A stretch of 64,000 nucleotides of DNA, taken from positions 62,001 to 126,000 of the forward strand of contig CAMYJA010000003.1 of assembly GCA_947258705.1 (NCBI GenBank), in the 5' to 3' direction. The notes under the pieces were generated by a model, which was not told the origin of the DNA, did not search any database, and saw only the letters and a list, made by a program, of their open reading frames with translations. Made by a program: the position numbers and the translations under genes. Shown piece after piece: positions 23,711-57,890 of this stretch (positions within the stretch are counted from its first letter, which is position 1; each line of letters begins with the position of its first letter). Source of the stretch: an uncultured Hyphomicrobiaceae bacterium (lineage in GTDB: Bacteria; Pseudomonadota; Alphaproteobacteria; Rhizobiales; CAMYJA01).

Positions 23711-23779
23711 GTTAGTTCATTCTCTGACGAACCGTTCAATTCCGGTGGCGAACCGTGAACAGAAAAGCTTGCCAACAGG

Positions 23780-24825: not shown

Positions 24826-24838
24826 AATTGTCTTGTCC

Positions 24839-25561: not shown

Positions 25562-25573
25562 CGTCCGGCCTCC

Positions 25574-27208: not shown

Positions 27209-27308
27209 TATTGTCAGTCCCACTCCGTCTTGTTTTGCCGTTCATCTCAAGTGAAGTTGCTTCTAGCACCATCATCAACCCCTATAGCCGGATTAGAATC
27301 CGCGCAGT

Positions 27309-34730: not shown

Positions 34731-35576
34731 ATGTTCACGCACAATCCATTCACAGAGCTTTCGGCGTTCATACCCCCCATGGTGATGCAAATATATGTCA
34801 TCGCGATGGCGGTTCTGGTCGTGGGCGGTACTCTCATTGACACTATGCACAAGAAAAGCGCCAAATGGTTCTTCGAAAATGCCGAAGAGGCCAAGAAGAG
34901 CGCAACCAAGACGGTTAGCACCGGGGATGCGGTCGCGATTGCCGGCCAAACGCTTGCCAATGAAATTTTATTGTCTGCCGAATTCTGCAATCAAAAGCGC
35001 AGACTTTCCCACCTCTTGACCATGTATGGCTTCCTTCTGTTCATTATCAGCACAGCCATCATGGTATTCTTCTACCCAACTGACGGTGCTGCAACGCCCA
35101 CATATCTGCCGGTTCTCTGGCATGTGGGAGCGCTGATGCTCGCCATTGGCGGTTACTGGTTCTGGTTTTTCATTCGGGTGGATGTCGCTGCGGAAGGGGT
35201 CAAGTTTTATCATCTCGTGCGCGCTGACCTGTTCATTCTCTCGCTTCTTGCAACTGCGACCTTCGCGTTGATCTGGTCCTATCTGCAGTGGACGGGTGGT
35301 ACCCCGATATGGGAAACTGTGTTTCTTGCTCTTTTCATCCTGTCCAGCACGGTTCTGTTCGGCGGGGTGTTGTGGTCGAAATTCGCACATATGTTCTTCA
35401 AGCCCGCTGCTGCTTTCCAAAAACGGATGACCAAGGCAGATGGGTCAGCGGAGAATTTGCCAACGATAGGCCGCGATGATCCCGAGCAGCGGAAAAGACA
35501 TTCCATGGAGCTTTTGCAAGATGCCCCAATGGATATGGGACTTGGTATCAAGCGCGAGCAGCCACGCCACTACTAA
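34731..35576 (+). CDS. aprM: AprM, membrane anchor of APS reductase
   Basis: The 281-residue protein has about five membrane helices (near 18-35, 97-115, 125-148, 165-190 and 200-222). It has a hydrophilic N-terminal loop rich in Lys and Glu and a cytosolic tail. Its position directly before aprBA identifies it as AprM, the proposed membrane link that lets APS reductase exchange electrons with the quinone pool in sulfur oxidisers lacking the Qmo complex. Start ATG 34731 follows GTAGGAG. A-T-rich codon use differs from the sat gene. Confidence 0.85.
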   Translation: MFTHNPFTELSAFIPPMVMQIYVIAMAVLVVGGTLIDTMHKKSAKWFFENAEEAKKSATKTVSTGDAVAIAGQTLANEILLSAEFCNQKRRLSHLLTMYGFLLFIISTAIMVFFYPTDGAATPTYLPVLWHVGALMLAIGGYWFWFFIRVDVAAEGVKFYHLVRADLFILSLLATATFALIWSYLQWTGGTPIWETVFLALFILSSTVLFGGVLWSKFAHMFFKPAAAFQKRMTKADGSAENLPTIGRDDPEQRKRHSMELLQDAPMDMGLGIKREQPRHY

Positions 35577-35643
35577 TAAATCAAACTGAAAGCTTCTAGA
35601 AACTCAACTAACAAGCTTCTTTCCAACATGTGAGGAAACGACT

Positions 35644-36123
35644 ATGCCTACTTTCGTCTATATGACCAGATGCGATGGTTGTGGAGAGTGCGTCGACATT
35701 TGTCCGTCCGACATCATGCACATCGATAAAACCTATCGGCGTGCCTACAATATTGAACCCGATATGTGCTGGGAGTGCTACTCCTGCGTCAAGGCCTGTC
35801 CGCATAATGCCATTGATGCCCGCGGCTATGCCGACTTTGCACCACTTGGCTCCAGCGTTCGCGTTGTACGCGATGAGCAAAAAGGCACAATCGCCTGGAA
35901 AATCAAATTCAGAAACGGGACGGTCAAGGATTTCCTGTCCCCAATTACCACCAAACCCTGGGGCACTTGTATTCCCCAGCTGGCGGATGAAGCAGAACCC
36001 AGCAAGGAAATGCGTGACGGCGAATTGTTGTTTAACGAGCCCAAATATGTCCGTTTGGACGAAGGCGAATTGCATACCCTGGAATCCAATGGTCTCAAGT
36101 TGAAAGAAGGGGTGTATTACTGA
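35644..36123 (+). CDS. aprB: Adenylylsulfate reductase beta subunit
   Basis: The 159-residue iron-sulfur protein has two 4Fe-4S motifs: CDGCGECVDIC (Cys10, 13, 16, 20) and CWECYSCVKAC (Cys42, 45, 48, 52). The C-terminal tail that wraps AprA in known structures is present. It relays electrons between AprA and the membrane partner. Its stop overlaps the aprA start (ATTACTGATGG), which is translational coupling. Spacing to aprM is 67 bases. Confidence 0.95.
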   Translation: MPTFVYMTRCDGCGECVDICPSDIMHIDKTYRRAYNIEPDMCWECYSCVKACPHNAIDARGYADFAPLGSSVRVVRDEQKGTIAWKIKFRNGTVKDFLSPITTKPWGTCIPQLADEAEPSKEMRDGELLFNEPKYVRLDEGELHTLESNGLKLKEGVYY

Positions 36124-38012
36124 TGGCTTATAAAACAATCATCGAAGACAACATCGATATTCTCGTTGCAGGCGCCGGCCTTGGCGGCACTGGTGCAGCA
36201 TGGGAAGCGCGGTACTGGGGCAAGAACAAGAAAATCGTTATTGCCGAGAAAGCCAATATTGATCGCTCAGGTGCTGTTGCCCAGGGCCTTTACGCCATTA
36301 ACTGTTACATGGGCACACGTTGGGGCGAAAATAATCCGGAAGATCATGTGCGCTATGCACGTATGGACCTCATGGGAATGGTGCGTGAAGATCTCGCCTT
36401 CGACATGGCCCGTCATGTTGACAGCGCCGTGCATCAGTTCGAAGAATGGGGTCTGCCCATCATGAAAGATCCCGATACGGGAACCTATCTACGTGAGGGC
36501 CGCTGGCAGATCATGATTCATGGTGAGAGCTACAAGCCCATCGTTGCCGAAGCTGCTAAAAAATCAGCAGATAAGGTGTTCAACCGTATCTGCGTCACTC
36601 ACCTCTTGATGGACGATGCCAAGGAAAACCGGGTTGCCGGTGCAGTTGGCTTCAACGTCCGTACCGGTAATTACCATGTATTCAAATCCAAGACCGTAAT
36701 TTGTGGTGCTGGTGGTGCTTCCAATATCTTTAAGCCGCGTTCAGTCGGTGAAGGTGCGGGCCGTGTTTGGTACGCCCCTTGGTCCTCTGGTTCAGCATAT
36801 GGTCTCATGATCGAAGCCGGCGCCAAGATGACGCAAATGGAAAACCGCATCGTGCTCGCCAGGTTTAAGGACGGTTATGGTCCCGTTGGTGCCTACTTCC
36901 TTCACCTCAAGACCTACACACAAAATTGCCTGGGCGAAGAATACGAATCGAACTGGTTTCCCGAGCTCTCAAAAATGGTCGGCAAGGCTTACCTGGATAC
37001 GGAAGGTCAGCATCTATCTCACAAACCAATTCCAACCTGCTTGCGTAACCATGCATTTATCAATGAAGTAAATGCTGGTCGTGGCCCCATCCATATGGTC
37101 ACCATGCATTCATTCCAGGATCCCCATCTCGAGGAGGTTGGCTGGGAAAACTTCCTAGGCATGACCGTTGGTCAGGCTGTCCTTTGGGCGGCAACCGATG
37201 TGGATCCCAAATATGAAAATCCAGAACTGACCACATCCGAACCTTATGTCATGGGTTCGCATGCAACCGGCTGTGGCGGTTGGGCAAGTGGACCGGAAGA
37301 CCTTTCTCCCCCTGAATATTTCTGGGGCTATAACCGTATGATGACGGTTGAAGGTTTGTTCGGTGCCGGTGACGCAGTCGGCGGAACACCACACGCCTTC
37401 TCTTCAGGTTCGTTCACAGAGGGGCGTCTCGCCGCCAAAGCAGCCTGTAAATATATTGATGATGGCAAGGCCGAAGGCATCCGTGTTTCAGACAAGCAGA
37501 TTGAAGACCGAAAGGCCGAAATCTACAAGCCAATGGAACATTACAAGCTTTACCGCAATGAAATCGTGGCTGGTGATGTTAACCCTCACTATATCAATCC
37601 ACGTCAGGGTCTCGACCGTTTGCAGAAACTGATGGATGAGTATTGTGCGGGTGTGACCGTCAATTACATGACCAACGAAAAATTGCTGCAAATCGGTCTC
37701 AAGAAGCTCAAGATCATGGAAGAAGACCTTGAAAGCCTGGCTGCCAAGGATATTCATGAATTGCTGCGCGCTTGGGAGCTGAAGCATCGCCACCGGACAT
37801 CCGAGTGCGTCATGCAACATACATTGTTCCGCAAGGAAACTCGTTGGCCTGGCTATTATTATCGTGGCGACGCAATGAAGCTGGACGACGATAACTGGCA
37901 TGTTTTGACAGTTTCACGCCGCGATCCTAAAACCGGTGAATATACAATGGAGAAAGCGCCATTGTATCATCTGGTTGAAGAAGAAAACGCGAAAGTTGAA
38001 GCTGCAGAATAA
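36123..38012 (+). CDS. aprA: Adenylylsulfate reductase alpha subunit
   Basis: The 629-residue flavoprotein starts with the FAD-binding DILVAGAGLGGTGAAWEARYWG and contains the family's RSGAVAQGLYAINCYMG and HRTSECVMQHTLFR segments. It converts sulfite plus AMP to APS in oxidisers, or the reverse in sulfate reducers. AprM and divergent sat favour oxidation here. Three 60-base lines counted by hand (from 36121, 37021 and 37501) give 40-47% G+C, against 62% for a sat line at 33241. This base-composition break suggests acquisition of the apr genes. Confidence 0.95.
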   Translation: MAYKTIIEDNIDILVAGAGLGGTGAAWEARYWGKNKKIVIAEKANIDRSGAVAQGLYAINCYMGTRWGENNPEDHVRYARMDLMGMVREDLAFDMARHVDSAVHQFEEWGLPIMKDPDTGTYLREGRWQIMIHGESYKPIVAEAAKKSADKVFNRICVTHLLMDDAKENRVAGAVGFNVRTGNYHVFKSKTVICGAGGASNIFKPRSVGEGAGRVWYAPWSSGSAYGLMIEAGAKMTQMENRIVLARFKDGYGPVGAYFLHLKTYTQNCLGEEYESNWFPELSKMVGKAYLDTEGQHLSHKPIPTCLRNHAFINEVNAGRGPIHMVTMHSFQDPHLEEVGWENFLGMTVGQAVLWAATDVDPKYENPELTTSEPYVMGSHATGCGGWASGPEDLSPPEYFWGYNRMMTVEGLFGAGDAVGGTPHAFSSGSFTEGRLAAKAACKYIDDGKAEGIRVSDKQIEDRKAEIYKPMEHYKLYRNEIVAGDVNPHYINPRQGLDRLQKLMDEYCAGVTVNYMTNEKLLQIGLKKLKIMEEDLESLAAKDIHELLRAWELKHRHRTSECVMQHTLFRKETRWPGYYYRGDAMKLDDDNWHVLTVSRRDPKTGEYTMEKAPLYHLVEEENAKVEAAE

Positions 38013-38032
38013 TAGTTCTGAAGCTGGAAAAT

Positions 38033-38069
38033 GACCAAACAGGAATTTAGTTTAAACTCCTGTTTGGTC
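38033..38069 (+). terminator. Intrinsic terminator-like hairpin after aprA
   Basis: GACCAAACAGGA (38033-38044) pairs without mismatch with TCCTGTTTGGTC (38058-38069), a 12-bp stem with a 13-base A/T-rich loop. A T-containing but interrupted tract follows. It probably ends most aprMBA transcripts. Confidence 0.75.
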
Positions 38070-38134
38070 GCTTTATCTGATTTTCTGGCTGTGCAACCAG
38101 GGGTATCATTATCACTGAAACTATAGAAATACCC

Positions 38135-38485
38135 ATGAATATTATCGAAAAAACCGATGATGAAATATTGTCAATCGCGACGCCGCTATGGGCTCATCTT
38201 GTCGAAAATTCCAACGCAGGCCAATATGGAGAGTTCGTCAAGAATTTTTCACGGTCTCTGGTTCAGGGATTAAACGAAATCGAAGTCGGTAAGCAGTTTG
38301 CAAGAAGCGAGCTAACCAGAAACCTGGCTGACGATCCGGATTTTCTTGGTATCATTCGTCGCGGAGAGCACGTAACGGTCCTCTACCGGCAACGCAGCAC
38401 CAGTCAAAAAGGCGAATGGCTCGGGCGTCTGGTCCTCGGTTATGAAGGTGAAGAGGTCAAGATTTTTGGGGCATCTATATTCTGA
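38135..38485 (+). CDS. Small soluble protein downstream of aprA, unknown
   Basis: The 116-residue protein has no signal peptide, membrane segment or cysteine. It contains WAHLVENSNAGQYGEF, followed by a helical middle and a beta-rich end (VTVLYRQRST, LVLGYEGEEVKIFGA). The start is at ATG 38135, with a weak ribosome site. It lies after the aprA terminator hairpin, so it may be read by run-through or from its own promoter. I do not recognise it. Placement between aprA and a prolyl isomerase suggests an accessory sulfur function, which is untested. Confidence 0.7.
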   Translation: MNIIEKTDDEILSIATPLWAHLVENSNAGQYGEFVKNFSRSLVQGLNEIEVGKQFARSELTRNLADDPDFLGIIRRGEHVTVLYRQRSTSQKGEWLGRLVLGYEGEEVKIFGASIF

Positions 38486-38605
38486 GCCAAAGCATTTTCA
38501 GAAAAAGTGAATAGCGGTTTTTCGGTTCGAAAATGCGTAAAATAATGAAGTAGAGTGGGATCAGAGACCCTAATTAGAATAATCCTGCTCTAATACAGGT
38601 TTGAT

Positions 38606-39115
38606 ATGAGTGACACTATCCAGGACGACAAATTAGTCGAACTCAACTACAAGGTGATCGACCAGAAGTCGGGTCATATATTGACAACTGTCGAGTTTCC
38701 CCTGGGCTATGTGCACGGCCATAGTGATGTGTTGGGGGCCGCGGTTACCGAAAGGCTCGAAGGCAAGAGCGAGGGAGATATTATCGAGGTGCCTGTTGAT
38801 TGCGACCTGCTTTACGGTCCCCGCGACGAGAGCCTTGTTTTTACCGATCACATCGAGAACGTGCCAAAAGAATATCGGGAAATCGGCACCACGATTGTGG
38901 CCGAAAACGAAAAAGGCGAGCCGCGGAATTTTATCGTAACCAGGATGGACGACAAAACCCTGACGGTCGATGGCAATAACCCGCTTTGCGGCAGAAAAGT
39001 TATATTTAAACTCGAAATACTAACCGTACGAGATGCGACAATTGAGGAGATTGAGGCAGGCGGAACAGTCGTCCCGGAGGCGAATGTCAGTGATGCGCTG
39101 AAAGTGCCTGTCTGA
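38606..39115 (+). CDS. SlyD-like FKBP-type prolyl isomerase
   Basis: The 169-residue protein carries the SlyD-type FKBP layout. There is an N-terminal strand LVELNYKVIDQKSG, the FKBP core with GYVHGHSDVLGAAV, an inserted flap (about residues 70-130), and the closing segment DGNNPLCGRKVIFKLEIL. It has no His/Cys-rich metal tail, unlike E. coli SlyD. It catalyses cis-trans isomerisation of prolyl bonds or chaperones folding. Relatives near sulfur-oxidation genes are known to me in a general way. Here it could help mature the apr proteins; that is inference. Confidence 0.85.
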   Translation: MSDTIQDDKLVELNYKVIDQKSGHILTTVEFPLGYVHGHSDVLGAAVTERLEGKSEGDIIEVPVDCDLLYGPRDESLVFTDHIENVPKEYREIGTTIVAENEKGEPRNFIVTRMDDKTLTVDGNNPLCGRKVIFKLEILTVRDATIEEIEAGGTVVPEANVSDALKVPV

Positions 39116-39247
39116 AGAAAATTGAGTTTGACTGGAGAGTATTTTTCCAGGGTTTGAAAATGAACACATGTCGGAATGGCTTCAAATTGCAATAGCATGC
39201 AGCGGCTGTCCCGGCTCAATAACAACCTGATAGAAAGAGGTGATAAT

Positions 39248-39406
39248 ATGGGAAAAGTAGATCCGAAAGCTAAAATAGCTGATTCAAAAACGCGCTTTTT
39301 TACGACCCGTCAGATGGAGCCAAATGAAAAAGGGTATGTTGGCTACGAGACCATCTGGGAACCGTTCCACAAAGAAGTCGAATACACCACTCCCAAAAAG
39401 CCGTAA
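39248..39406 (+). CDS. Very small protein (52 aa) after slyD-like gene, unknown
   Basis: The 52-residue hydrophilic protein starts MGKVDPKAKIADSKTRFF and ends EYTTPKKP. The start is well supported by AGAGGTGATAAT just before ATG 39248. A longer frame begins at 39176 but has no ribosome site. It has no cysteine or signal peptide. The last of the same-strand genes behind aprMBA. It is not recognised, but the good ribosome site and clean ends argue that it is translated. Confidence 0.6.
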   Translation: MGKVDPKAKIADSKTRFFTTRQMEPNEKGYVGYETIWEPFHKEVEYTTPKKP

Positions 39407-39656
39407 GCTGCGCAGCCGCACGACCTTTCAGGTTGTTGCGGCCCCAGTAGCTGTTTTTGATTTCCCGGGTGGTTCCGTATCTCGGCCGCGACACCGGCCC
39501 CGGCTCCGGGAAGGATGCCGCCATTCAGCGCAACATGATCGCCTCCGACAAGCTGAAGACTTACGCCAGGGCTTTAGCTCCTTCAACATGTGTTGATATT
39601 CGGTTCGGGTTTGGAGGTTTCGAGCAATCCCCCAGGTACGATCAGCGACGAGATAA

Positions 39657-40478
39657 CTAATCAGGCCGCGCAAAGGTCAGCGACGCCCAAAAGCTGGACC
39701 AGTCTGCCTTGATGTCCGGTGCCGGCTCGAACATGTAGACCGCGCTCAGCAGGAAGTTGCCGCCGGCGGCGGCCGCGATACGCACCCGACCCTCTCGATC
39801 GGTGACATAACGGCGCGGCTCGTTCGGTCGCCTGCTATCGAAGACCTTGACGGTACTACCGGCCAGGGGTTTGCCGCGCAAAAGCAAACGCACGGGCAAG
39901 GCCGCGCCGGCAGGAAGTGAGTATGGGTTGCGCTCTGCGATTAATTCAAGCGGCAATCCAACAGCACTATCATGTCCACCGCCGCGGCCGGCCGAAACGA
40001 GCATTTTCGCACAACGTATGTAGGTTTCCTTCGTGCCGGTTTTGCCAAGACCACGTGCAAGATGACGCGGCAGGATATTTTCAAGGCCCTCGTCGCTCAG
40101 GTAATTCGTGAATTTTTCCCAGGTCTCGAAAGTCAATTTTTCCGCTTTGCTCTGATAAGCGATGACCGCCATGCCAGGCATGGAAAGCTTCACCCGGGCC
40201 GCCGGATCATCCCCAAGGACGCCCTCAACCTTGCGCAAATCCTTGCCGTCCTTGATCACGAAGCGTGTAAACAAGTCGCTGATGAACGGCAGGGAGTTGC
40301 CTTTGAAAAACTGTCCGTTCCTTAATGTGATGGCGATTGTCGCATCGGTTTGAGGCGCGTAATCAGACGCCTCCAGCCAAAATTCATGCGCATCGGCCTG
40401 GTGAGGGGCAGCGGTGTGCGTGAACGCTGCAAGCACCAACGCAGCTGCAATCCTTCGATAAACTTGTTTTGAATTCAT
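39657..40478 (-). CDS. Secreted DUF4198 protein
   Basis: The protein has about 273 residues from ATG 40478. The signal peptide runs to about residue 31 (...QADA-HEFW), and the mature N-terminus starts with His, as is typical of DUF4198. A beta-rich domain with AHEFWLEASDYAP, YRVTDREGRVR-like and GGNFLLSAVY segments follows. DUF4198 proteins are often linked to Ni/Co uptake systems, where the N-terminal His may bind metal. The frame stays open upstream to 40532; GGAGGTG lies 18 bases before the ATG. It is divergent from the HupE/UreJ gene, 114 bases apart. Confidence 0.8.
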   Translation of the reverse strand: MNSKQVYRRIAAALVLAAFTHTAAPHQADAHEFWLEASDYAPQTDATIAITLRNGQFFKGNSLPFISDLFTRFVIKDGKDLRKVEGVLGDDPAARVKLSMPGMAVIAYQSKAEKLTFETWEKFTNYLSDEGLENILPRHLARGLGKTGTKETYIRCAKMLVSAGRGGGHDSAVGLPLELIAERNPYSLPAGAALPVRLLLRGKPLAGSTVKVFDSRRPNEPRRYVTDREGRVRIAAAAGGNFLLSAVYMFEPAPDIKADWSSFWASLTFARPD

Positions 40479-40592
40479 CAAACCGTATTTTTTCCCACCT
40501 CCAGAACAAACAGGGCATACTCGAATACACAAACCCCACGCCGATTGAAAGGCCGGGCATCAGTTATATCGAATGGCGGAGAATTGGCTAAA

Positions 40593-41723
40593 ATGAGACT
40601 ATATCTGATCCTGAGCATTTTGATTGCCGGGATTCTAACACAGCCAGGCAAGGTGCGTGCCCATGAAATACGTCCGGCTGTCGTTACGGTGACGGTTGGT
40701 GCCGATCAACGCTATGAGATTGATCTGCGCGTCAATCTCGAGGCTTTGATCGCGGAAATAGGGAGCCAGCACAACGATACCGACCGCTCACCTAGCGCCA
40801 AGCATTATAACGAACTTCGGGCCCTGCCTGCGGATGAGTTGAGCGCACGATTCACCGCGTTTGCCCCCAAATGGCTTCAGGGGGTGGACCTTCGGTTCGA
40901 CGATAATCCTGTGAAGCTGCGGATTTCATCGATTGCCATTCCACCGCCCGGCGATCTGGCGCTCGCGCGTATCACCACGGTCCGTCTTACGGGACAGATA
41001 CCCGCCCGTGCAAAATCCCTGCGCTGGTCTTACGCCGCACAGTTCGGCAATAATGTATTGCGAGTCAGACGCCCGGGCGATGACAAACCAATAACCAGTT
41101 GGCTGCAAGACGGCACCCCGAGTGAGCGAATTCCGTTGAGCGGAAAAACCGTTCAAACGACCTGGGATGTCCTGCGTGACTATGCCGTTATCGGCTATTT
41201 GCACATCATTCCCAGGGGGCTTGATCACATTCTTTTTGTGCTCGGGCTCTATCTTCTGAGTTCGCGGCTCGGTCCCCTGCTTTGGCAGGTCACGGCCTTC
41301 ACGATCGCCCACTCCATTACGTTGGCGCTTGGCCTTTACGGCATTGTGCAGATTTCACCAGCCATCGTTGAGCCCCTGATAGCCCTGTCCATCGTTTATG
41401 TGGCGGTTGAAAATATCATGACCTCGCGGCTGAGCCCATGGCGTGTCGTTATCGTATTCGGTTTCGGTCTGCTTCACGGTCTTGGTTTCGCGGGCATTCT
41501 TCGGGAAATCGGCCTCTCGCAGCCGGATTTTGTGCTGGGTCTCATCGGTTTCAACGTCGGCGTGGAGTTCGGTCAGCTATCGGTTATAGCCCTGGCCTGG
41601 CTGGCGTTCGGTTTCTGGTTCGGCAATCGTTCCTGGTACCGGTGGCGCATCGTCCTGCCGGCATCCGCCGCTATCGCAGCAGTCGGAGCGTATTGGTCGG
41701 TCGAGCGCCTCTTCCTTGCCTAG
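40593..41723 (+). CDS. HupE/UreJ-type membrane protein with periplasmic domain
   Basis: The 376-residue protein has a signal peptide (to about residue 25, VRAHEIRP) and a soluble domain of about 190 residues. Six helices then form the HupE/UreJ-like region, with HIIPRGLDHILFVLGLYLL, TIAHSITLALGLYG and GFGLLHGLGFAG. The His residues in those helices are the usual metal-binding sites. Relatives are proposed nickel or cobalt permeases. Such N-terminally extended forms are common in proteobacteria and their substrate is unproved. Pairing with the divergent DUF4198 gene and the nearby bufferin cluster suggests a metal-handling block. Confidence 0.84.
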   Translation: MRLYLILSILIAGILTQPGKVRAHEIRPAVVTVTVGADQRYEIDLRVNLEALIAEIGSQHNDTDRSPSAKHYNELRALPADELSARFTAFAPKWLQGVDLRFDDNPVKLRISSIAIPPPGDLALARITTVRLTGQIPARAKSLRWSYAAQFGNNVLRVRRPGDDKPITSWLQDGTPSERIPLSGKTVQTTWDVLRDYAVIGYLHIIPRGLDHILFVLGLYLLSSRLGPLLWQVTAFTIAHSITLALGLYGIVQISPAIVEPLIALSIVYVAVENIMTSRLSPWRVVIVFGFGLLHGLGFAGILREIGLSQPDFVLGLIGFNVGVEFGQLSVIALAWLAFGFWFGNRSWYRWRIVLPASAAIAAVGAYWSVERLFLA

Positions 41724-41827
41724 ATCGTTTCGGTTTAGAACGCGCGTGGCAGACGACACCTTAGGGCCGCCGTCCCCGCCCTTGTTTAACTGGTGGCACC
41801 TCACCTGCCGCAATGGACCGGCGCTCT

Positions 41828-42598
41828 TCAGGCGGCCAGCATTTGGCCTTCAATCCAGCCTTTAAGATATCCTGCGACGCGCATCGAGGCTTCGTCCTCA
41901 TCGGCATAGGTCGCGCTCAACTCATTGAGGCCCGCGAAATTCACGCCCCTGGACATTTCATCCCACAGCATCGCTTCCTCATAATCCATGCTCCGATACA
42001 TGGAGCTAAGGTCCCGGCGGAATACAATGACCCGGTCGGGCTCGTCGAGAACCTCGATTGCAGGCGGAGTCGTTTCGTCGTCGAGCGCCTGCCAGATGTC
42101 CTGCACATTTGTTGCGAGGTCGAGCCGGGTCGTGCTGGGGTGCGGTGCGAAGTTGAGGTCGGGCCAGTTTTCGGGCTCCACGGAGGCGAGGTCTTCCAGC
42201 GTCATGAATTCCGCGTCGGCGGCGTCAAAGGCCTTGTTGAGCGCCCATTCGAACGACGCCATGTCGCCCAGAACAGGCGCATTGCTAAAAGGCTCGTGCG
42301 TTTTCAGGAATTCCGGCAGGCGATCGCCATAATGCCGCGCATTGGGCGAGTGCGACACGGTATTTGCGATATAGGCCCGGACCATTATCTCAAACTGATC
42401 GTCGCCCAAAAGCAAACCCAGTTTTTCATAATCATTTTCGATAAATTCGATCAGCCGGAGACCATAGGCGTTCTGATATACGCCCAGCAGGACTTCACGC
42501 TGTTCCTTGTCCGATGAATTGATTTCGTCGAGAACTTCCGTCTCGCCCTGAAGCACGGCGCGCTGAAATTCGTCCTGTAATTCTTTCAGGCTGATCAT
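41828..42598 (-). CDS. bufC: BufC-like DUF2063 protein
   Basis: The 256-residue soluble protein has an N-terminal DUF2063 domain (ELQDEFQRAVLQGE, VYQNAYGLRLIEFIENDYEKL and HYGDRLPEFL, about residues 5-105) and a C-terminal domain of mixed character. In described bufferin clusters this is the partner of the MNIO enzyme, probably a recognition subunit that brings the precursor peptide. Start ATG overlaps the bufB stop by four bases. It is the last gene of the unit. Confidence 0.85.
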   Translation of the reverse strand: MISLKELQDEFQRAVLQGETEVLDEINSSDKEQREVLLGVYQNAYGLRLIEFIENDYEKLGLLLGDDQFEIMVRAYIANTVSHSPNARHYGDRLPEFLKTHEPFSNAPVLGDMASFEWALNKAFDAADAEFMTLEDLASVEPENWPDLNFAPHPSTTRLDLATNVQDIWQALDDETTPPAIEVLDEPDRVIVFRRDLSSMYRSMDYEEAMLWDEMSRGVNFAGLNELSATYADEDEASMRVAGYLKGWIEGQMLAA

Positions 42599-43455
42599 TG
42601 GGTCGCGGCCATTGCGATTTCCGGCAGGGTTTTGGCGCCAATATCCCGGGCGATGCGCAGCTCCGCCTCAAGGTCTTCGAGCGGAGGAATATTGTCGTCG
42701 CGTTCGAGCAAGGTGGAAACAGGACCAAAAATCTTGAGCGCCTTGGCATATAGCTCCCAGACCTCATCGCAGACATCGTGATCATGGGTGTCGATAATGT
42801 AGGTGTCGTTATGCTCGTGGCCGGCAAGGTGAAACTGGACCACACGTTCCGGAGGCACGCCGTTTAAAAAATCCATCGGGTCGAAGCCGTGATTGAAAGC
42901 GCTGACAAAGACATTGTTCACATCCAGCAAAAGCCAGCAATCGGCACGGTTGGCGAGTTCGGTGATAAACTCCCACTCGGTCATTTCAGAGCTCTTGAAC
43001 GTGACGTAGGAAGAGACGTTTTCGAGCGTGATCCGGCGTTCGAGAAAGTCCTGAACCCGCTTGACCCGCTCGACGATGTGATCGAGCGCTTCTTCGGTAT
43101 AGGGCACGGGCAGGAGATCGTGAAGATTGATCCCGTGAACGCCGGTCCAGCACAGATGGTCGGAAATCCATTTGGGCTCGATGCGCCTGGCGAGCGCCTT
43201 GAGGTCTTTGAGATAGTCCATATTGAGGGGGGCGGTGGAGGCTATCGAGAGCGAGACGCCGTGCTGGACGAGGGGAAAACGCTCGGCGATGCGGTCGAGA
43301 TTATATAGCGGCCGGCCGCCTTCGACCATGTAATTCTCGGCGATTATCTCGAACCAGTCGACATCCGGTTCGCCATCGAGAATATCTGAATAATGGTCGG
43401 GCCTGAGGCCAAGACCAAATCCAAGGAATTCCGGTTTTTGCAGCTGTTCATCCAT
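42595..43455 (-). CDS. bufB: BufB-like DUF692/MNIO peptide-modifying enzyme
   Basis: The 286-residue TIM-barrel-like protein belongs to DUF692, now called multinuclear non-haem iron-dependent oxidative enzymes. Metal-ligand motifs are visible in order: WFEIIAENYM, VQHGVSLSI, ISDHLCW, TLENVSSY, LLDVNNVFVSAFNHG, and QFHLAGHEH plus DTHDHDV. In known bufferins the enzyme turns cysteines of the precursor into thiooxazole-type groups that bind copper. Here the substrate is presumably the BufA-like product of 43578-43865. Iron and oxygen needs are known for the family, not shown here. Confidence 0.9.
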   Translation of the reverse strand: MDEQLQKPEFLGFGLGLRPDHYSDILDGEPDVDWFEIIAENYMVEGGRPLYNLDRIAERFPLVQHGVSLSIASTAPLNMDYLKDLKALARRIEPKWISDHLCWTGVHGINLHDLLPVPYTEEALDHIVERVKRVQDFLERRITLENVSSYVTFKSSEMTEWEFITELANRADCWLLLDVNNVFVSAFNHGFDPMDFLNGVPPERVVQFHLAGHEHNDTYIIDTHDHDVCDEVWELYAKALKIFGPVSTLLERDDNIPPLEDLEAELRIARDIGAKTLPEIAMAATQ

Positions 43456-43528
43456 ATCATACGGATAGCATTAATTTCAGGGCTCTCACAGACCATAGGT
43501 AGTTAATGGGATTGGTATTTCAAGACAG

Positions 43529-43555
43529 AAAAACCCGCCGACCGAAGCCGGCGGG
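43529..43555 (-). terminator. Terminator between bufA-like gene and bufBC
   Basis: CCCGCCG (43534-43540) pairs with CGGCGGG (43549-43555). Read on the minus strand, the stem is followed directly by five T residues (43533-43529). It lies 22 bases after the precursor stop and 74 bases before bufB, so it should make the precursor message more abundant than that of the enzymes. Confidence 0.82.
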
Positions 43556-43577
43556 CTGTTCATTAATGAAAAGGAGA

Positions 43578-43865
43578 TTAGCCCTTCTTTTCAGCCTTTT
43601 CAGTCGTACGGCCACCGATCGCCTTGCATGCTTCGGCCGATACGGAAACAAATCCCTGGCCCTTACAGGCGTTCTGGCCCTTGCAGGCGTTGCTCGCCGT
43701 TTTGCAGGCTGTGTTGCCTTTGCAAGCGGTAACGCCAAAGCAATGGACATTACTGTTTTTGGCCTTGTGTGCGGCGGCCTTTGCAGGTGTTAATGCTGCT
43801 CCACTTATAAGAAATGCTGCTGCTGAAGCGGCGAGAATAGCACCTGACTTTTTGTTCAATTTCAT
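43578..43865 (-). CDS. bufA: BufA-type bufferin precursor (RiPP)
   Basis: The 95-residue protein has a signal peptide (to about residue 30, LTPAKA-A), then a short linker and a cysteine-repeat core. Cys42, 48, 54, 61, 67 and 80 are spaced 6-6-7-6-13, and five of them lie in ACK tripeptides (TACKGNT, TACKTASN, NACKGQN, NACKGQG, EACKAIGG). This is the pattern of the small periplasmic bufferin precursors (DUF2282/BufA2 type). ATG 43865 is chosen because GGAGG lies ten bases upstream; the frame is open to 43961 without a site. The mature product probably binds copper in the periplasm. Confidence 0.88.
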   Translation of the reverse strand: MKLNKKSGAILAASAAAFLISGAALTPAKAAAHKAKNSNVHCFGVTACKGNTACKTASNACKGQNACKGQGFVSVSAEACKAIGGRTTEKAEKKG

Positions 43866-44099
43866 TTTGGAATATCCTCCAATAATTGGTTGGGGTTTCT
43901 TAGTGATAGTCGCTGTGACGATTGCCACGAACAAGTTACCTAAATCAAATATGGATCGCAATCATGAAACATCTCATCACAATCGTGTGAGCCTCCTAAG
44001 TCATTGACTTATTTTCTTGGTTTCCTTGGCTGAAAATCAGTTCCCTTACGGAAAAACAGCATGTATTTCCGGCGTCACGGCCCATCAATTTATGGCGCT

Positions 44100-44660
44100 T
44101 TAAAGTATGCGTGCGAACAGTAGCGCTCCCATGCAGCGCCCGATTGTCAGTCTGAAGGGTATTCCTACGGGATTATCCGCCGTTACTTTTACCAGGTGCC
44201 TGTCATAATTGTAATCTCTGAAATTATGCCAACCGGCCAATCTCAGATTGCGGCTGATCGTGGCGGTGGGCAGACAGCTGGCAAACCGTCTCCAGGACCC
44301 GGGCCGGAACTCGTCCGGCGGCTCGCGCAATTCCCGGTCCGCCCGGTCGCGTTCGTCGCGCTCCTGGTCACCATCCTTTAACGACCTGCGCTCGTCATCC
44401 CCATAACCGTCATATTCGGGTTTCTTCCCATTGGCGTATGGCTCAGGCTCGGGAGCGAATTCCCGCTGTGCGCGCTTGTCATCGAAATCATCATCGAGCG
44501 GTGCCAGATTGGAGCCGCCGCCCTTGGGAACTTCAAATCCGAAAGAAAATGATGGAAAATTAAACTGGTATCTGTCTGTCCCGCTATCGGCCTCGGCGGC
44601 TGCGGTTCCTGCAAGGATGAATATTGCCAATGCAGCACTTGTCATTCGATTTGTGTTCAT
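44100..44660 (-). CDS. Secreted charged protein upstream of buf genes, unknown
   Basis: The 186-residue protein has a signal peptide (about 1-23, AEA-D). An acidic and then mixed-charge low-complexity middle follows (DDDFDDKRAQ, DGDQERDERDRADRE). The C-terminal part of about 60 residues has two cysteines (RFASCLP, IGRCMG) and ends in a hydrophobic segment. The start is well supported by GGAGGTG before ATG 44660. It precedes the buf genes on the same strand, with 234 bases between. I do not recognise the family. A structural or binding protein is possible. Confidence 0.65.
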   Translation of the reverse strand: MNTNRMTSAALAIFILAGTAAAEADSGTDRYQFNFPSFSFGFEVPKGGGSNLAPLDDDFDDKRAQREFAPEPEPYANGKKPEYDGYGDDERRSLKDGDQERDERDRADRELREPPDEFRPGSWRRFASCLPTATISRNLRLAGWHNFRDYNYDRHLVKVTADNPVGIPFRLTIGRCMGALLFARIL

Positions 44661-45068
44661 GTCACCACCTCCGCGGAAAGTGTTGTCCTCAAAAGCCGTT
44701 TGCCTGAAAGGCCTCGGACCAGGTCTTCCGGGCATTTCTCCAACGACCGGGGCCTATTGAGCCCGGCGCGCCTTTTCAAAGATAATTATAGGATAAAAAT
44801 AGCGGCGGCGGCAAAACATATGAGACACTGAGCAAATAGCGGAAAATACTCAGGCTACGCCATGGATATCCCATATACCCGCCCCGGCCGGCCCGGGCGG
44901 GGACGGGCCGGCCCGGGACGGCCGGGGGTCCACCCGATTAATCATATTGCCAAGAGGCGGGGGCTGCGTCGAAATAGCTCTATGGCCGGGTTGTGAAAAT
45001 GCTAAAGTTACAACAGTCAATTTATTGAAAGAACTCCAGAATCTGGAATTCCCGAAGGAACGTCGGTA
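44661..45068. other. Gap with G+C-rich direct repeat
   Basis: This 408-base non-coding stretch lies between divergent genes. GGCCGGCCCGGG occurs twice, at 44886-44897 and 44906-44917, inside an almost pure G+C tract (44878-44930), next to A/T-rich sequence at 44777-44805. Each copy contains the palindrome GGCCGGCC. No gene is supported. It presumably holds promoters for the secreted protein gene and the ABC exporter. Confidence 0.6.
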
Positions 45069-45776
45069 ATGGTCGAACAGGTTTTCAGGACGCGCGGGGT
45101 CACCAAGGTTTATGAAACCGGTGAGCAGCAAGTCCACGCCCTAAGAGGCATCGATCTTGATATTGCGGAAGGGGAGATGATCGTCCTGCTCGGTCCCTCG
45201 GGTTCCGGGAAATCGACTTTGCTCAATATTTTGGGCGGTCTTGACAAGGCGAGCAGCGGCGAAGTCTATTTCCACGACCGCGATCTCTCCAAGCTTTCGG
45301 AAAACGATCTCACACTTTACCGGCGCCACAATGTGGGATTTGTGTTTCAGTTCTATAATCTGATCCCGAGCCTGACAGCCCGGGAAAATGTGGCGCTGGT
45401 CACGGAAATTTCGGACGACCCCATGACGCCGGAGGAGGCTCTCGATGTTGTCGGTCTGGCGCCGCGGCTCGACCATTTCCCGTCACAGCTTTCAGGCGGC
45501 GAGCAGCAGCGGGTCGCAATCGCGCGGGCAATCGCCAAGAAGCCTGGGGTTCTGCTCTGCGACGAACCGACGGGGGCGCTCGATTCAAAGACGGGCATTA
45601 AAGTCCTGAGCACCCTGACGAATGTCAATGAGGAGCTGGGGACGACCACTGCGCTCATCACGCATAATATGGATATCGGAAACATCTCAGATCGTGTGAT
45701 CAGTTTTCGCGACGGACAGGTGGTCGATCGCCGTAAAAATAAAAAGCGTCTCCGCCCGGAAGAAGTCCATTGGTAA
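45069..45776 (+). CDS. ABC exporter ATP-binding protein (LolD/MacB/YbbA type)
   Basis: The 235-residue ATPase has Walker [10 protein letters not shown] (about residues 41-49), signature [14 protein letters not shown] (about 140-153) and Walker [13 protein letters not shown], followed by the switch His in ALITHN. The family powers FtsX-type permeases that act by mechanotransmission rather than classic transport. It starts the exporter set, 15 bases before the permease. By paralogy it may also serve the ATPase-less permease at 7091-9454, though that is inference. All catalytic motifs are intact. Confidence 0.93.
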
Positions 45777-45791
45777 GCGTTTAGAGTGTAA

Positions 45792-48152
45792 ATGGTAATT
45801 CTCGACAAAAAACTCGTTCGAAATTTCAAGGCCATGTGGAGCCAGGCGCTGGCTATCGCACTTGTCATCTCGGCTGGTACGGCATCGCTCATTCTGGCGG
45901 GGGGATCGTATCGATCGCTGCTTGAAACGCGGGACATCTATTACGAGCGCTACCGCTTCGCCCATGTGTTTGCCGATGTCCGCCGGGCCCCGAACAGCCT
46001 TGCGCAGCGGGTTCGGGAAATAGAAGGTGTCGCGCTGGTCGAGACACGGATCAAGGGGCGTGCGCTTCTCGATATCGACGGTCTTGCGCGGCCGGCAAAC
46101 GGCCTTCTCATCAGTCTCCCGCAAGGCAAGGCACCGGAGATAAACGGCGTTCATCTGCGCAAGGGACGGCTACCGGATCCCAGGCGGAAAGAAGAAGTGA
46201 TCGTCAATGAGAGCTTTGCCAAGGCGCAAAATTTTTCAGGGGGCGATTCTTTCAGCGCAATTATCAACGGCAAAAAGCGCAGGCTTGTTATTGTCGGAAT
46301 AGCGCTGTCTCCGGAATTCGTCTATGCGCGACAAGGCGAATCCATGCCTGACCCCAAGCAGTACGGGGTGATCTGGATGAACAGCGATTTTCTCGCGGCA
46401 TCGTTCGACATGAAGGGCGCGTTCAATTCCATCAGCGTGAAATTGCGCCGCAATACGTCGGTCGAGGGCACGATCGACAAGCTCGACGAACTTTTGGAGC
46501 CTTATGGCGGATCGGGCCTTATTTCCCGAAAACGCCAGCCGTCGCACGCGTTTATCGAAGCCATGCTGAATGTACTCAGAACAATGACCTTCATATCGCC
46601 GCCCATATTCCTGGCCGTTGCCGCCTATCTCATCAATATTACATTGGCGCGGCTAATAACGATCGAACGGATTCAGATCGGCCTGCTGAAGGCGCTTGGG
46701 TTCCAGACGCGTGCGATCGTCCTGCATTATCTCAAGCTCGTAAGCATCATAGCCGTTATCGGAATTCTCATCGGTTTTGTGGCGGGGATATATCTCGGCC
46801 ACTGGATGACGGCGTTTTATTCAACGTTTTATCATTTTCCATTCTTCGTATTTCTCACACCGCCCGACCTTTTCATTATTGCCGCATTGGCCAGCTTCAG
46901 CGCCGCGGTCCTGGGAACTGTCTACGCCATCCGAAATATCATCGACCTGCCGCCCGCGGTCGCAATGGCCCCCAGCGCTCCCACTCAATACAAGGGAACG
47001 GGTAAATTCCATCATGTTCTGTCGAGCTATTTTTCGAACATGATGATGATGATCATACGCCATCTTCTGCGTTTTCCGCTGCGGTCGGGCCTGACCCTGC
47101 TAGGCGTCGCTCTGTCGATCATGCTTCTTGTCGGCTCGCTCGTTTTCAACAATGCCATCGACCGCATGGTGGACGTGACCTATTTCCAGATGCTGCGGGC
47201 ATCGGCCAATATGCAGTTCACCAAAATACAACCGCTCAAGGTGATCTATGAAGTCGAAAGACTACCCGGCGTCCTGAAGGTTGAGCCCCGCAGGATCGTT
47301 CCCGTTTCACTGAGGCACAAGAATTTAAGCCGGCGACTTAATGTTACCGGCCTGCCGAGCGACAGCAGGCTCATTCGGCTCGTCGACAGGAAGAACCGGC
47401 CTATCGCTATTCCGGAATACGGTCTCGCGCTGACGGAAAAACTTGCCCAGGTTCTCAATGTGGGCATCGGCGGCCGGGTCGAGGTGCATTCAAAAGTCGG
47501 CAAGCGCCGCACCATGGAAATTCCGGTTTCCGCCATACTGCAAGGCTATATCGGCATGTTCGCATTTATCGATTTGGGGCGGCTTAATGAATTGCTCGGA
47601 GACGGGGCGGGGATCAATGCCGTCGACATCGATATCGACGAAGGCGAAAAGCTGGCCTTATTTGAAAAGGTCAAACAGCTCCCAAGCATCGCCAATATTT
47701 CATCCGTTCAGGACACGATCGGAAATTTTCGCAAAACCCTGGCGCGAAACATTCTCGTCATGGCCGCGATCTTCGTCGCGCTTTCGGTCACGATCGATAT
47801 CGGCGTGATTTACAATAGTGCGCGCATCCACCTTTCAGAGCGCGGCCGCGAGCTGGCCAGTCTGCGCGTGATCGGATTTACGCAAAGGGAAGTGGCCAGA
47901 ATATTGCTTGGCGAGTTTGCTATCATTGTCGCGCTGGCGATCCCCTTGGGATGTGTTTTGGGAAAGTATTATACGTCATATCTCCTGGGCAGCATGGAGA
48001 ACGAAATTTACCGCATTCCCGTTTATGTTGACACCCAGATCTACGTCTATGCTTCAATGATTGCAGTTGGGGCGGCAATCGCTTCTTCGTTTCTCGTAAG
48101 CCGGTTGTTGGTTACGATGGATATCGTTGAGATGCTAAAATCCAGGGAGTAG
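45792..48152 (+). CDS. ABC exporter permease with two FtsX cores
   Basis: The 786-residue protein repeats the pattern of the permease at 7091-9454. There is an N-terminal helix (ALAIALVISAG), a periplasmic domain, three helices with FtsX core 1 (about 265-395), a helix near 435, a second periplasmic domain, and three C-terminal helices with ELASLRVIGFT at the coupling loop. By topology it resembles YbbP-type permeases rather than MacB, which is about 650 residues including its ATPase domain. It probably lifts a lipid-like substrate from the membrane. It is part of one transcription unit with the ATPase and adaptor. Confidence 0.9.
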   Translation: MVILDKKLVRNFKAMWSQALAIALVISAGTASLILAGGSYRSLLETRDIYYERYRFAHVFADVRRAPNSLAQRVREIEGVALVETRIKGRALLDIDGLARPANGLLISLPQGKAPEINGVHLRKGRLPDPRRKEEVIVNESFAKAQNFSGGDSFSAIINGKKRRLVIVGIALSPEFVYARQGESMPDPKQYGVIWMNSDFLAASFDMKGAFNSISVKLRRNTSVEGTIDKLDELLEPYGGSGLISRKRQPSHAFIEAMLNVLRTMTFISPPIFLAVAAYLINITLARLITIERIQIGLLKALGFQTRAIVLHYLKLVSIIAVIGILIGFVAGIYLGHWMTAFYSTFYHFPFFVFLTPPDLFIIAALASFSAAVLGTVYAIRNIIDLPPAVAMAPSAPTQYKGTGKFHHVLSSYFSNMMMMIIRHLLRFPLRSGLTLLGVALSIMLLVGSLVFNNAIDRMVDVTYFQMLRASANMQFTKIQPLKVIYEVERLPGVLKVEPRRIVPVSLRHKNLSRRLNVTGLPSDSRLIRLVDRKNRPIAIPEYGLALTEKLAQVLNVGIGGRVEVHSKVGKRRTMEIPVSAILQGYIGMFAFIDLGRLNELLGDGAGINAVDIDIDEGEKLALFEKVKQLPSIANISSVQDTIGNFRKTLARNILVMAAIFVALSVTIDIGVIYNSARIHLSERGRELASLRVIGFTQREVARILLGEFAIIVALAIPLGCVLGKYYTSYLLGSMENEIYRIPVYVDTQIYVYASMIAVGAAIASSFLVSRLLVTMDIVEMLKSRE

Positions 48153-48158
48153 TCTTTA

Positions 48159-49565
48159 GTGCTTCGGAGTAAATATTTTTGGCGTTCTGTCGGCATTGTG
48201 TTGTCGATTGTCTTCTTTTTCTGGGCGATTTGGCCCCGGCCGGAATATGTGGAAATTGCTAAAATTTCGGAGGGCGTTTTCGAAGAAACGATCGATGAAG
48301 ACGGCGTCACGCGCATCAAGGATATATATACGGTTGCGGCCCCGGTCACAGGTCGGCTTTTGCGCAGTGACCTCAAGGTCGGGCAAAATGTCGTAAAAGC
48401 GAAAACCGTTCTCGCGCGAATTCAACCGGCCGAGCCCGCGTTCCTCGATATCTCCAATTTGAAAACCGCCGAGGCCAATGTCGAAAGCGCGCGGGCGGCC
48501 ATTGTGCTGGCAGAATCCAATCTCGCGCAGGCGAAAGAACGCTTGCGTTTTACCAAGGACGAGGTAAAAAGAGCCAATCGCGAGAAGCGGAGAGGCCGGC
48601 TTAAAAAAGCACATGTCGATCGTGCAAAATTTGACCGGAATCTGGCGCGGGAAGCCGTCAATGTTGCGAAAGCCAAATTGACGATCGCTCAGGAAGACTT
48701 TAAAAAAGCCCAGGCGCGGCTGATGCGTCCCGGCGTCAGCAAACAATCAGACGAAATGGTCGATTCCGGCGAGGTCCGCGAAACAGCGAGCACTGCTGTA
48801 GAGCCCGACAAAGCCGCGCCCAAGAATGACAAGAAAACAGGATCGGACAAAAAAGACGGTTCGGAAACCGCAACCGCCAAAGCCGATCCGAAGGATGAGA
48901 AAAAAACAAACGAAGATGGCGAGGCGCCAAGCAAAACCGCCACAGAATCCTGGATTTACAACGTTTCTTCACCGGTCGATGGTCAGGTTCTGACCATATT
49001 ACAGGGAAACGAACTCACCATTCCAGCAGGCACGCCCTTGTTGAGAATCGGTGATCCGTCCCAGCTTGAAATCGTTGTCGACCTGCTATCGCGTGACGCT
49101 GTCAGGGTGCGGGTCGGGGCGAAGGCCTATATCGAGCAATGGGGCGGCGAGGGCACGCTGCATGCGGAAGTCGCGAGCATTGAACCCACCGGATTTCCCA
49201 AGGTGTCGGCCCTTGGTATTGTCGAACAGCGCGTGAAGGTGGTTCTGGAGATCAAGGATGGACGTGAAAAGTGGGAACGGCTCGGCCATGACTACCATGT
49301 TCAGGTTCGCATAGTCGTCTGGCGGAATGAAAACACAGTTACCGTGCCTGTTGCAGCTTTGTTCCGTCGAGGAGATGGCTGGGCAGTTTTCCGGGCACGT
49401 TACGGTAGAGCCACGCTCACCAATGTGGAGATCGGGCATAGAAACAGGGAGCAAGCGGAGGTCATAAAGGGCCTCAGCGCGGGCGACGAGGTGATCATCT
49501 ATCCCAGCGACAAGGTAATCGACGGCGTTCTGGTGGATGATCGAGACAATCAGGAAACCGGATAA
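48159..49565 (+). CDS. HlyD/RND-type adaptor with charged linker insertion
   Basis: The 468-residue protein has a membrane anchor (about residues 7-25), a lipoyl half at VAAPVTGRL, an alpha-hairpin (about 95-190), a second lipoyl half at VSSPVDGQVL (about 270), and barrel domains ending SAGDEVIIYPSDKV. It matches the adaptor at 9451-10677 over most of its length, but carries an extra Lys/Asp/Glu-rich low-complexity stretch at about residues 200-260, between the hairpin and the second lipoyl half. It starts from GTG 48159, six bases after the permease stop. Function: periplasmic arm of the exporter beside the polyketide synthase. Confidence 0.88.
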   Translation: MLRSKYFWRSVGIVLSIVFFFWAIWPRPEYVEIAKISEGVFEETIDEDGVTRIKDIYTVAAPVTGRLLRSDLKVGQNVVKAKTVLARIQPAEPAFLDISNLKTAEANVESARAAIVLAESNLAQAKERLRFTKDEVKRANREKRRGRLKKAHVDRAKFDRNLAREAVNVAKAKLTIAQEDFKKAQARLMRPGVSKQSDEMVDSGEVRETASTAVEPDKAAPKNDKKTGSDKKDGSETATAKADPKDEKKTNEDGEAPSKTATESWIYNVSSPVDGQVLTILQGNELTIPAGTPLLRIGDPSQLEIVVDLLSRDAVRVRVGAKAYIEQWGGEGTLHAEVASIEPTGFPKVSALGIVEQRVKVVLEIKDGREKWERLGHDYHVQVRIVVWRNENTVTVPVAALFRRGDGWAVFRARYGRATLTNVEIGHRNREQAEVIKGLSAGDEVIIYPSDKVIDGVLVDDRDNQETG

Positions 49566-49661
49566 ACGTTCGCTTTTGGTATGAGATTTGCTGTGTGAAG
49601 CATGTGTTTCAATTCGATACCGCCTAAGGATGAGGTGGTTGAACTATCGTCATGGATACGG

Positions 49662-49689
49662 TTTGTCGATTGCAAGTCTATGATATAAT
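49662..49689 (+). promoter_or_regulatory. Probable promoter of the polyketide synthase gene
   Basis: TATAAT (49684-49689) is a perfect -10 element. TTTGTC (49662-49667) sits 16 bases upstream as a weak -35. The inferred start of transcription near 49696 leaves a leader of about 30 bases before the GTG at 49726. The gap of 160 bases from the exporter genes supports a separate promoter. Confidence 0.5.
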
Positions 49690-49725
49690 TCGATATTGTG
49701 TTCTGCGTAATTTTTGAGGGTTGTT

Positions 49726-52700
49726 GTGAGTACGGACAAAGTAAAGTTTATTCAGAGTGATCGCCCGTTTTATGAGCCGATTGCAATTGTCGGGATCGGC
49801 TGCCGATATCCCGGCGGCAGTACGGATCCGGAGAGCTTCTGGAATTTCCTGTGCGATAATGGCAACGGTATTTCGGAAGTTCCGGAAGACCGCTGGAACA
49901 AGGAAACATATTACGACGACAATCCGGATAATACTCAGGCCGCGACAACGAAATGGGGTGGCTTCATCGACAAAATCGATGAGTTCGATTCCTCGTTTTT
50001 CGATATCTCTCCCCGTGAAGCGACCTCCATGGATCCTCAGCAGCGGATATTGCTCGAGCTGACATATGAAGCGATCCAGGACGCCAACATGACCATTGCC
50101 GATGTCAGCAATTCTGTCACCGGCGTGTTCACAGGCGTCACAATGTCCGACTATCAGACGCTTCAGGAGTATGGCGGCCGGAACGACGAGATCTATGCCG
50201 GCACGGGTTATATCATGTGCATTATCGCAAACCGTGTTTCGCACAGGTTCAATCTCAAGGGCCCCAGCTATGTGGTGGATACCGCATGCTCGTCCTCGCT
50301 TGTTGCTTTCGATCAAGCCTGCCGAAGCATCAATTCCGGCGAGTGCGAAATGGCATTCGCGGCCGGCGTCAATATCATTTTACAGCCCTTCCCCTTTATT
50401 GTGTTTTCCAAGGCGAACATGCTTTCGCCGACCGGTCTTTCGGCCGCGTTTGACGCGCGAGCAAACGGCTTTGTCAGGGGCGAAGGCGCAGGTGTCGTCG
50501 TTCTCAAACCGCTTTCCAAGGCGATTGCCGATGGCGACAGGATTTATTCCGTGGTGCGCGGCAGCCTGATCAATCAGGATGGACGCACGACAACATTGAC
50601 GGCGCCCAACCAGAAATCACAAATTTCGATGATGAAACGGCTGTGCGGGATGGCGGAAGTCGATCCTAAAACGGTCAGCTATGTGGAGGCTCACGGAACA
50701 GGGACGCCGATTGGCGATCCGATAGAGGCTGGTGCCATCGGCCGCGTATTCGGTAAGCCGCGTCTCGGCGATCCGGTCAATATCGGCTCGGTAAAAACCA
50801 ATATCGGGCATCTTGAATCGGGTGCCGGAATTGCAGGTATCATCAAGACCGCGCTCGTTCTGCATAAGGGCGAGATCCCGCCCAACAGAAATTTCGAAAC
50901 ACCCAATCCAAATATTGCCTTCGACGCGCTAAATATTCGCGTGCCCACAAGTGTGACACCGCTTGCGGAAATCGACGGTCGGCAGATCGCGATTACGAAT
51001 TCATTCGGATATGGCGGCACGAATGCCACTGCAGTGATGGAGAGCTACCGCGAGGCTGCGCATTCAGCGCCGAACGGGGTGACCTCATCCCTTTCCAATG
51101 GCTGCACGACCGGTGTTGCGCAAGCTCATGTCAAATTGAACGGACATCATGAGCCGCATACTTCTCCGGTCATCGTTCCGCTATCGGCCGCATCGGAAAC
51201 TTCGCTCAGTGCCTATGCCGGCGTGTTGAAGGAGGCGATTGAAGAGGGCGGCGCGCTTGCAACCGAACCTCTTTCATGCATTGCGTCGGCTTTGGCATTT
51301 CAAAGGGACGCCTTCGGTCAACGTGCCGTGGTTCATGCCGAAAATCATAACGACCTTGCGAAAAAACTCGCGCTTCTGGCAGAGGGAGAAGAGTGGCCGC
51401 TTGAAGACCGATATGAGCTGTCGCCGATTCAGACCGGCCATACGGTTGCCAGGAGAAAGCTGGTCTTCACCTATACCGGTCAGGGCAGCCAGTGGTGGGC
51501 AATGGGGCGCCGGCTGCTTCAGGAAAATGCCGTATACCGCAAGGCGCTTGAAGAATTCGACGCCTTGTTCAAACCGCTTGCCGGCTGGTCGGTCGTCGAG
51601 GCCATGGAGGCCAATGAAGATGCTTCCCAGGTCAATGATTCCGTCGTCGCCCAACCGACGATCATCGCCGTCGAAATCGGCCTGACCGCGCTCTGGAAGC
51701 ATTACGGCATCGAACCCGACTATGTCCTCGGTCACAGCCTGGGCGAAATCTCCGCGGCCCATGCCTCGGGGGCGCTGTCGCTCGAAGATACGGTCAAGCT
51801 CATCCATCACCGCAGTCAAACCCGCAAGCATTTGCGGCATAAGGGTGCGATTGCCGCAATCGGTCTTAACGCCGAGGAAATCAGGTCTTATCTGCCGGAT
51901 GACGGCAAGGTCGACATTGCCGCAATCAACGGCCCGGGAATGGTTTCGATCAGTGGCGATATCGATCTCATTGAGGAGATCGTCGAGGAAATCCATGACG
52001 ATCGCGGCGAAGACATTCTCGCGCGCGTGTTGAAATCCGACACCGCCTGGCATTCCTATCATCTCGATCATCTGGAGGAATGGTTCAGGGACGGTATCGC
52101 ATCCATACAATGGCGCAACCCGACCATTCCATTTATCTCCAGCGTTACCGGGCAGCTCGAAGTGCGTCTCGATTCCGATTACTGGTGGTCAAACCTTCGG
52201 GCGCCGGTCAAATATATGCAGGCGGTCGAGTTCGCAACCGAGCTTGGAGCAAATATATTTCTCGAGCTTGGACCGCATCAGGTGCTGTCCGGCCTGACCG
52301 CCGGCAGTGCATCCGCCTGTGGCCGTCCCGCGAAAATCATTAATTCGCTGCACAGGAAACAGGACGATTTCGCTTCGATCACATCGGCGCTCGGCTCACT
52401 GTTCATCTCCGGTCTGCCGGTGAGGTGGGAAAGCGTCTGCGGCGTCCCGGAGGGAAAGCTCAGACTGCCGAAATATCAATGGAGCAAAAGCAAATACTGG
52501 CGGATCCCGGAAGAATCGAACAGCTATCTTTTTGGGGATATTGTTCACCCGTTTCTTGGACGGCGCAGCACCGATCCAAATCCCAGCTGGTCGGCGGAGA
52601 TCAATACGCATTCTTATAAATATCTAGCCGAGCATACGATCCAGGGCGAGGTTTTGTTTCCTGCAGCGGCCTATGTGGAAATGCATCTGGCCGCCGCCCG

Positions 52701-57780: not shown

Positions 57781-57890
57781 GGATCCGCTGAAAAGCCGGG
57801 CATCTCAGCGGCACACACATAGACGAGGCGGTATTGGCCGTTTTTTAACGAGGCGGCCGGCATGTCGCATAGAGGCGGGAGTGTGTTCAT

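Follow-up and report, generated by a model that had tools for sequence, protein, structure and literature searches.

Genes of the bufferin-2 locus

The window, by which we mean the whole analysed stretch of 64,000 nucleotides, carries on its minus strand a cluster of three genes in the order bufA-bufB-bufC, with an MNIO and a DUF2063 partner. The first gene, bufA2 (43578..43865, start ATG 43865-43863, stop 43580-43578), codes for a bufferin-2 peptide precursor of 95 amino acids whose cysteines stand at positions 42, 48, 54, 61, 67 and 80, and an SD-like GGAGG can be read 10 bases before its ATG (43876..43880, minus strand). The second gene, bufB (42595..43455, minus strand), codes for an MNIO (DUF692) maturase of 286 amino acids and overlaps by 4 bases with bufC (41828..42598, minus strand), which encodes a partner protein of 256 amino acids with DUF2063 and an RRE-like part (PME type 1). 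Neither a copper-responsive regulator nor a DoxX gene was recognised at the bufA2BC locus.

All three proteins score above the cut-offs of their models: the precursor reaches 91.8 bits against the NCBIfam BufA2 model (NF050166, cut-off 60), BufB 384.8 bits against the NCBIfam BufB model (NF050167, cut-off 310) and 386 bits against PF05114 (cut-off 25), and BufC 64.6 bits against PF09836 (DUF2063, cut-off 27.2). BufB also matches PDB 3BWW (E 2.5e-52). The AF2 model of BufC (mean pLDDT 91.6) was aligned by Foldseek to the PME1 structure 3DEE, which combines DUF2063 and RRE (E 3.8e-07), and to the TglHI complex 8HCI (E 8.1e-06), with a weak match to the RRE protein TbiB1; BufC is a DUF2063 plus RRE-fold partner. 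Because the BufA2, BufB and DUF2063 models and the fold of the partner all match, the bufferin cluster of precursor, DUF692/MNIO enzyme and DUF2063 protein proposed in the preliminary description is confirmed, and its subtype is Buf2. The Pfam profile search gave no PF10048 (DUF2282) match for the precursor, which places it outside Buf1, and a methanobactin identity of BufB was rejected, the MbnB model giving only 62.7 bits against a cut-off of 325. Judged by these sequence matches, the cluster is very probably a Buf2/BufA2 ('Cys-Lys captophorin') bufferin-2 biosynthesis operon, with a copper-peptide as its predicted product.

Cysteine pattern and enzyme signature

The six cysteines of BufA2 are spaced 6-6-7-6-13 and follow an N-terminus with KK, a hydrophobic stretch and an AKA-type site, in which a putative Sec cleavage can be read by eye between MKLNKKSGAILAASAAAFLISGAALTPAKA and AAHK. 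The precursor was modelled with low confidence (mean pLDDT 63), and a fold search of the model against the PDB returned no match. We compared the spacing in 115 matched reading frames from 96 loci, where the window's own gene is counted twice (L001, L003). Exactly the same spacing occurs in 79 of the 115 frames, which makes it the commonest among the relatives, and 6-6-7-6-14 in a further 21; the remaining frames are mostly four-Cys Buf1 peptides or forms whose lipoprotein-like N-terminus holds an extra Cys. Since about 100 relatives repeat the same pattern, its origin by chance is far excluded. The spacing of 6-6-7-6-13/14 is thus diagnostic of Buf2, and the regular repeat which the preliminary description had singled out is the norm of the family in both its spacing and its CK motifs; a special repeat architecture in this genome is ruled out.

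The ACK tripeptide occurs five times in the window peptide, as had been described, and stands at Cys2 to Cys6. Among 99 distinct cores, however, lysine follows Cys2 in 99, Cys3 in 80, Cys4 in 92 and Cys5 in 99, but Cys6 in just 22; behind Cys1 stands Met, Val, Tyr or Phe in most cases. Therefore the fifth ACK is a coincidence of the window sequence. The alignment of homologue cores that had been proposed thus finds the six-Cys spacing near-invariant and CK kept at Cys2-5 only; besides the six cysteines, K49, G50, G63, N65, A66, K68, G69 and G71 are invariant in an alignment of 58 sequences. Because lysine is conserved after Cys2-5 only, these four central cysteines are the likely modification sites. 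The earlier suggestion of several equivalent sites holds for at most these four, since Cys1 has no motif and the lysine after Cys6 is not conserved.

The enzyme shows a corresponding signature. Its motif ERDDN has Asp253 in the catalytic-base position and Asp254 in the Cys-Lys signature position. An Asp after the catalytic-base Asp has been described for MNIOs of Cys-Lys precursors (BufB2-Asp251); Lys-Cys enzymes have Phe in this position, and in DUF2282 enzymes it is not conserved (PMC13097082). In our alignment Asp is found at position 254 in 72 of 80 Buf2 enzymes against 1 of 26 Buf1 enzymes; Asp254 fits the published signature and marks BufB as a probable Cys-Lys-type MNIO. The metal-ligand-type residues E36, N41, H65, H100, D113, E145, D178, H209, D222, H224, E251 and D253 are invariant or nearly so in the enzymes of both families.

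The operon is an ordinary representative of bufferin-2, a family described before. It resembles Buf2/BufA2 (NF050166, 'Buf_6/12Cys'; Caulobacter vibrioides bufferin 2) in the six-Cys spacing, the CK motifs, the putative Sec-type N-terminus, the ABC order, BufB and the DUF2063 partner, and differs from it in single residues, such as the Lys after Cys6, and in having no DoxX gene at the locus. Buf1/DUF2282 bufferins have the same type of maturase and partner, but four cysteines spaced 11-7/8-21 and mostly Asn, Ser or Ala in place of Asp254. The Lys-Cys captophorins fontiphorin, oxazolin (HvfA), gonophorin and bulbicupramide (MmrA) likewise combine an MNIO with a DUF2063/RRE partner and give a thiooxazole product; however, their repeats carry Lys before Cys (EGKCG) and their enzymes Phe in the position of Asp254 (FonB Phe250, with FonB numbering transferred to BufB by motif rather than by superposition; ERDFN in 3BWW). 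In methanobactins (MbnABC) an MNIO also acts on Cys and copper is chelated, but the precursor has no signal peptide, the partner is another one and the product is an oxazolone-thioamide.

Intergenic hairpin and further bufferin genes

bufA2 and bufB are separated by 122 bases, and in this gap, 20 bases behind the stop of bufA2, sequence folding gives a terminator-like hairpin (43522..43557, minus strand), AGCCCGCCGGC-UUCG-GUCGGCGGGUU. Its GC-rich stem of 11 bp is closed by a UUCG loop, and its tail is U-rich. The 75 nt after the window bufA2 fold with a z of -4.0 against dinucleotide shuffles. In relatives the same interval has a mean z of -2.98 (n=94, 65 of them below -2), compared with -0.33 for the 75 bases after bufC (n=69) and -1.34 after bufA1 (n=26). 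Removal of similar sequences, which corrects for relatedness in part, left 55 non-redundant Buf2 genes, a few of which precede a tandem bufA2 and not bufB; behind 49 of the 55 there is a hairpin that reaches at least -12 kcal/mol, and a T-rich stretch stands behind 19 of these 49 hairpins. The hairpin thus recurs in most Buf2 operons without conservation of sequence. Two bufferin surveys make no mention of it and it is apparently unreported; no known RNA family or riboswitch was found in window 38000-46000. Its likeliest role would be partial termination or protection of a 3' end, leading to more precursor than enzyme, and this suggests how the peptide could be made in excess over its enzymes. 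Such an arrangement is often seen where an operon begins with a small, abundantly expressed gene.

Family and pattern searches also covered the genome of the window, where two MNIO genes were found, the window bufB and the bufB1 of a full bufA1-bufB1-bufC1-doxX locus on another contig (L002:1048-3561, contig C4 of G000). The only PF10048 match in the genome likewise lies on another contig, and the host carries both bufferin families, Buf1 and Buf2. On a third contig stands a second bufA2 (bufA2b; L004, G000:C9:67324-67545, minus strand) of 90 amino acids with no adjoining MNIO gene and a spacing of 6-6-7-6-13, identical to that of the window BufA2; stand-alone bufA2 genes are reported to be common (PMC12452194). 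This second precursor is probably matured in trans by the window BufBC. We give even chances to the combined proposal that the sequence-independent hairpin sets the ratio of precursor to enzyme throughout Buf2, either by partly terminating transcription or by stabilising mRNA, and that the window BufBC matures the unlinked second BufA2 in trans.

Among 80 named loci, 71 have bufB, and in 68 of those bufA2, bufB and bufC lie on the same strand. Tandem bufA2 genes occur in 15 of the 80, and nine loci, some of them examined as short stretches, have bufA2 without a Buf2-type bufB. BufA2 exceeds the cut-off in 10 of 61 genomes of the same order and an MNIO is found in 39 of them, the window genome included. 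Window 32773-38012, ~4-11 kb from the cluster, contains genes for sulfate adenylyltransferase and the alpha subunit of adenylyl-sulfate reductase (AprA), which suggest a sulfur-oxidising alphaproteobacterium as host. An alphaproteobacterium with sulfur-oxidation-type genes is one more host for a family counted in thousands.

Predicted maturation, metal target and neighbourhood

By analogy with characterised relatives, the thiooxazole chemistry, Sec export and copper binding may be expected at this locus as well. We propose that the BufA2 precursor would be synthesised in the cytoplasm, and that BufC, with its DUF2063 and RRE parts, would hold it and offer it to BufB, an iron enzyme. This enzyme would then oxidise central cysteines to 5-thiooxazoles, each losing 4 H, and its most likely targets are the four CK-type residues Cys2-Cys5. 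The modified peptide would leave by Sec, bind copper in the periplasm and buffer copper excess, and the bufA2-bufB hairpin would probably ensure that there is more precursor than enzyme. A 2025 survey left the Buf2 modification structurally unidentified (PMC12452194).

One could argue that the ACK at Cys2-Cys6 makes the window peptide a five- to six-site chelator, with all five ACK cysteines or even all six modified, since no repeat Cys is left unmodified in other MNIO-PME1 systems (seven in fontiphorin, six in bulbicupramide; PMC13097082, PMC12538549). However, the Asp of the Cys-Lys enzymes is proposed to contact the Lys of the motif (PMC13097082), a residue that is infrequent after Cys6 and lacking after Cys1, and in Buf1 the central cysteines are modified while the first and the last form a disulphide (PMC12452194). 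We thus consider such a chelator unlikely. By their CK context four cysteines, Cys2-Cys5, are the likely sites of modification. Cys1 and Cys6 would most likely escape it and pair in a disulphide, in the way reported for the outer cysteines of Buf1.

The same operon and chemistry could also serve another metal or an oxidant, such as gold, mercury, silver or sulfur stress. The name first given to related operons was gig (gold-induced), fusions with MerC are known (PMC12452194), a Microbulbifer homologue is not expressed under copper stress (PMC12538549), and the host resembles a sulfur oxidiser by the sulfate adenylyltransferase and AprA genes near the cluster. Nevertheless, nothing like the window's own neighbours stands beside other Buf2 operons, and the bufferins that have been characterised bind copper and give protection from it (PMC12452194), which makes a target other than copper rather improbable. 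A copper-buffering role of the window locus is what we infer from these characterised bufferins.

The preliminary description had taken the copper demand of a neighbouring cbb3 oxidase region and CcoI as an argument for copper handling. These genes are real (19489-27223, with the cbb3 oxidase genes at ~21.7-27.2 kb and the CcoI-type ATPase at 19489-21735), but they lie ~14-20 kb from bufA2BC with unrelated genes between, and in Caulobacter CcoI/FixI serves oxidase assembly and is dispensable for copper resistance (PMC12617631). Therefore they add nothing to the copper case, and we dropped the link, as distant co-location was its sole basis.

A perfect palindrome, TAAGTCATTGACTTA (TAAGTCA-A-TGACTTA), lies at window 43997-44011, ~130-146 bases upstream of bufA2. 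It has one more site in the genome, with a mismatch, and is absent at other bufferin genes, and was thus ruled out as a copper-regulator site. A search for a common upstream motif of bufA2, bufA2b and bufA1 gave only matches of chance length.

Beside the cluster, window 39657-41723 holds a divergent pair of genes, one for a DUF4198 protein and the other for a membrane protein of the HupE/UreJ_2 type, which may together serve metal uptake; the hupE-like, DUF4198 and orf211 neighbours had no match in any relative's Buf2 locus. On the other side, window 45069-58649 contains an ABC transporter ATPase, an FtsX-type permease and an HlyD-like gene, followed by a protein of 2688 amino acids, which on visual inspection resembles a type I polyketide synthase, and by a hydrolase. 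A similar permease/HlyD-like pair is also present at window 7091-10677.
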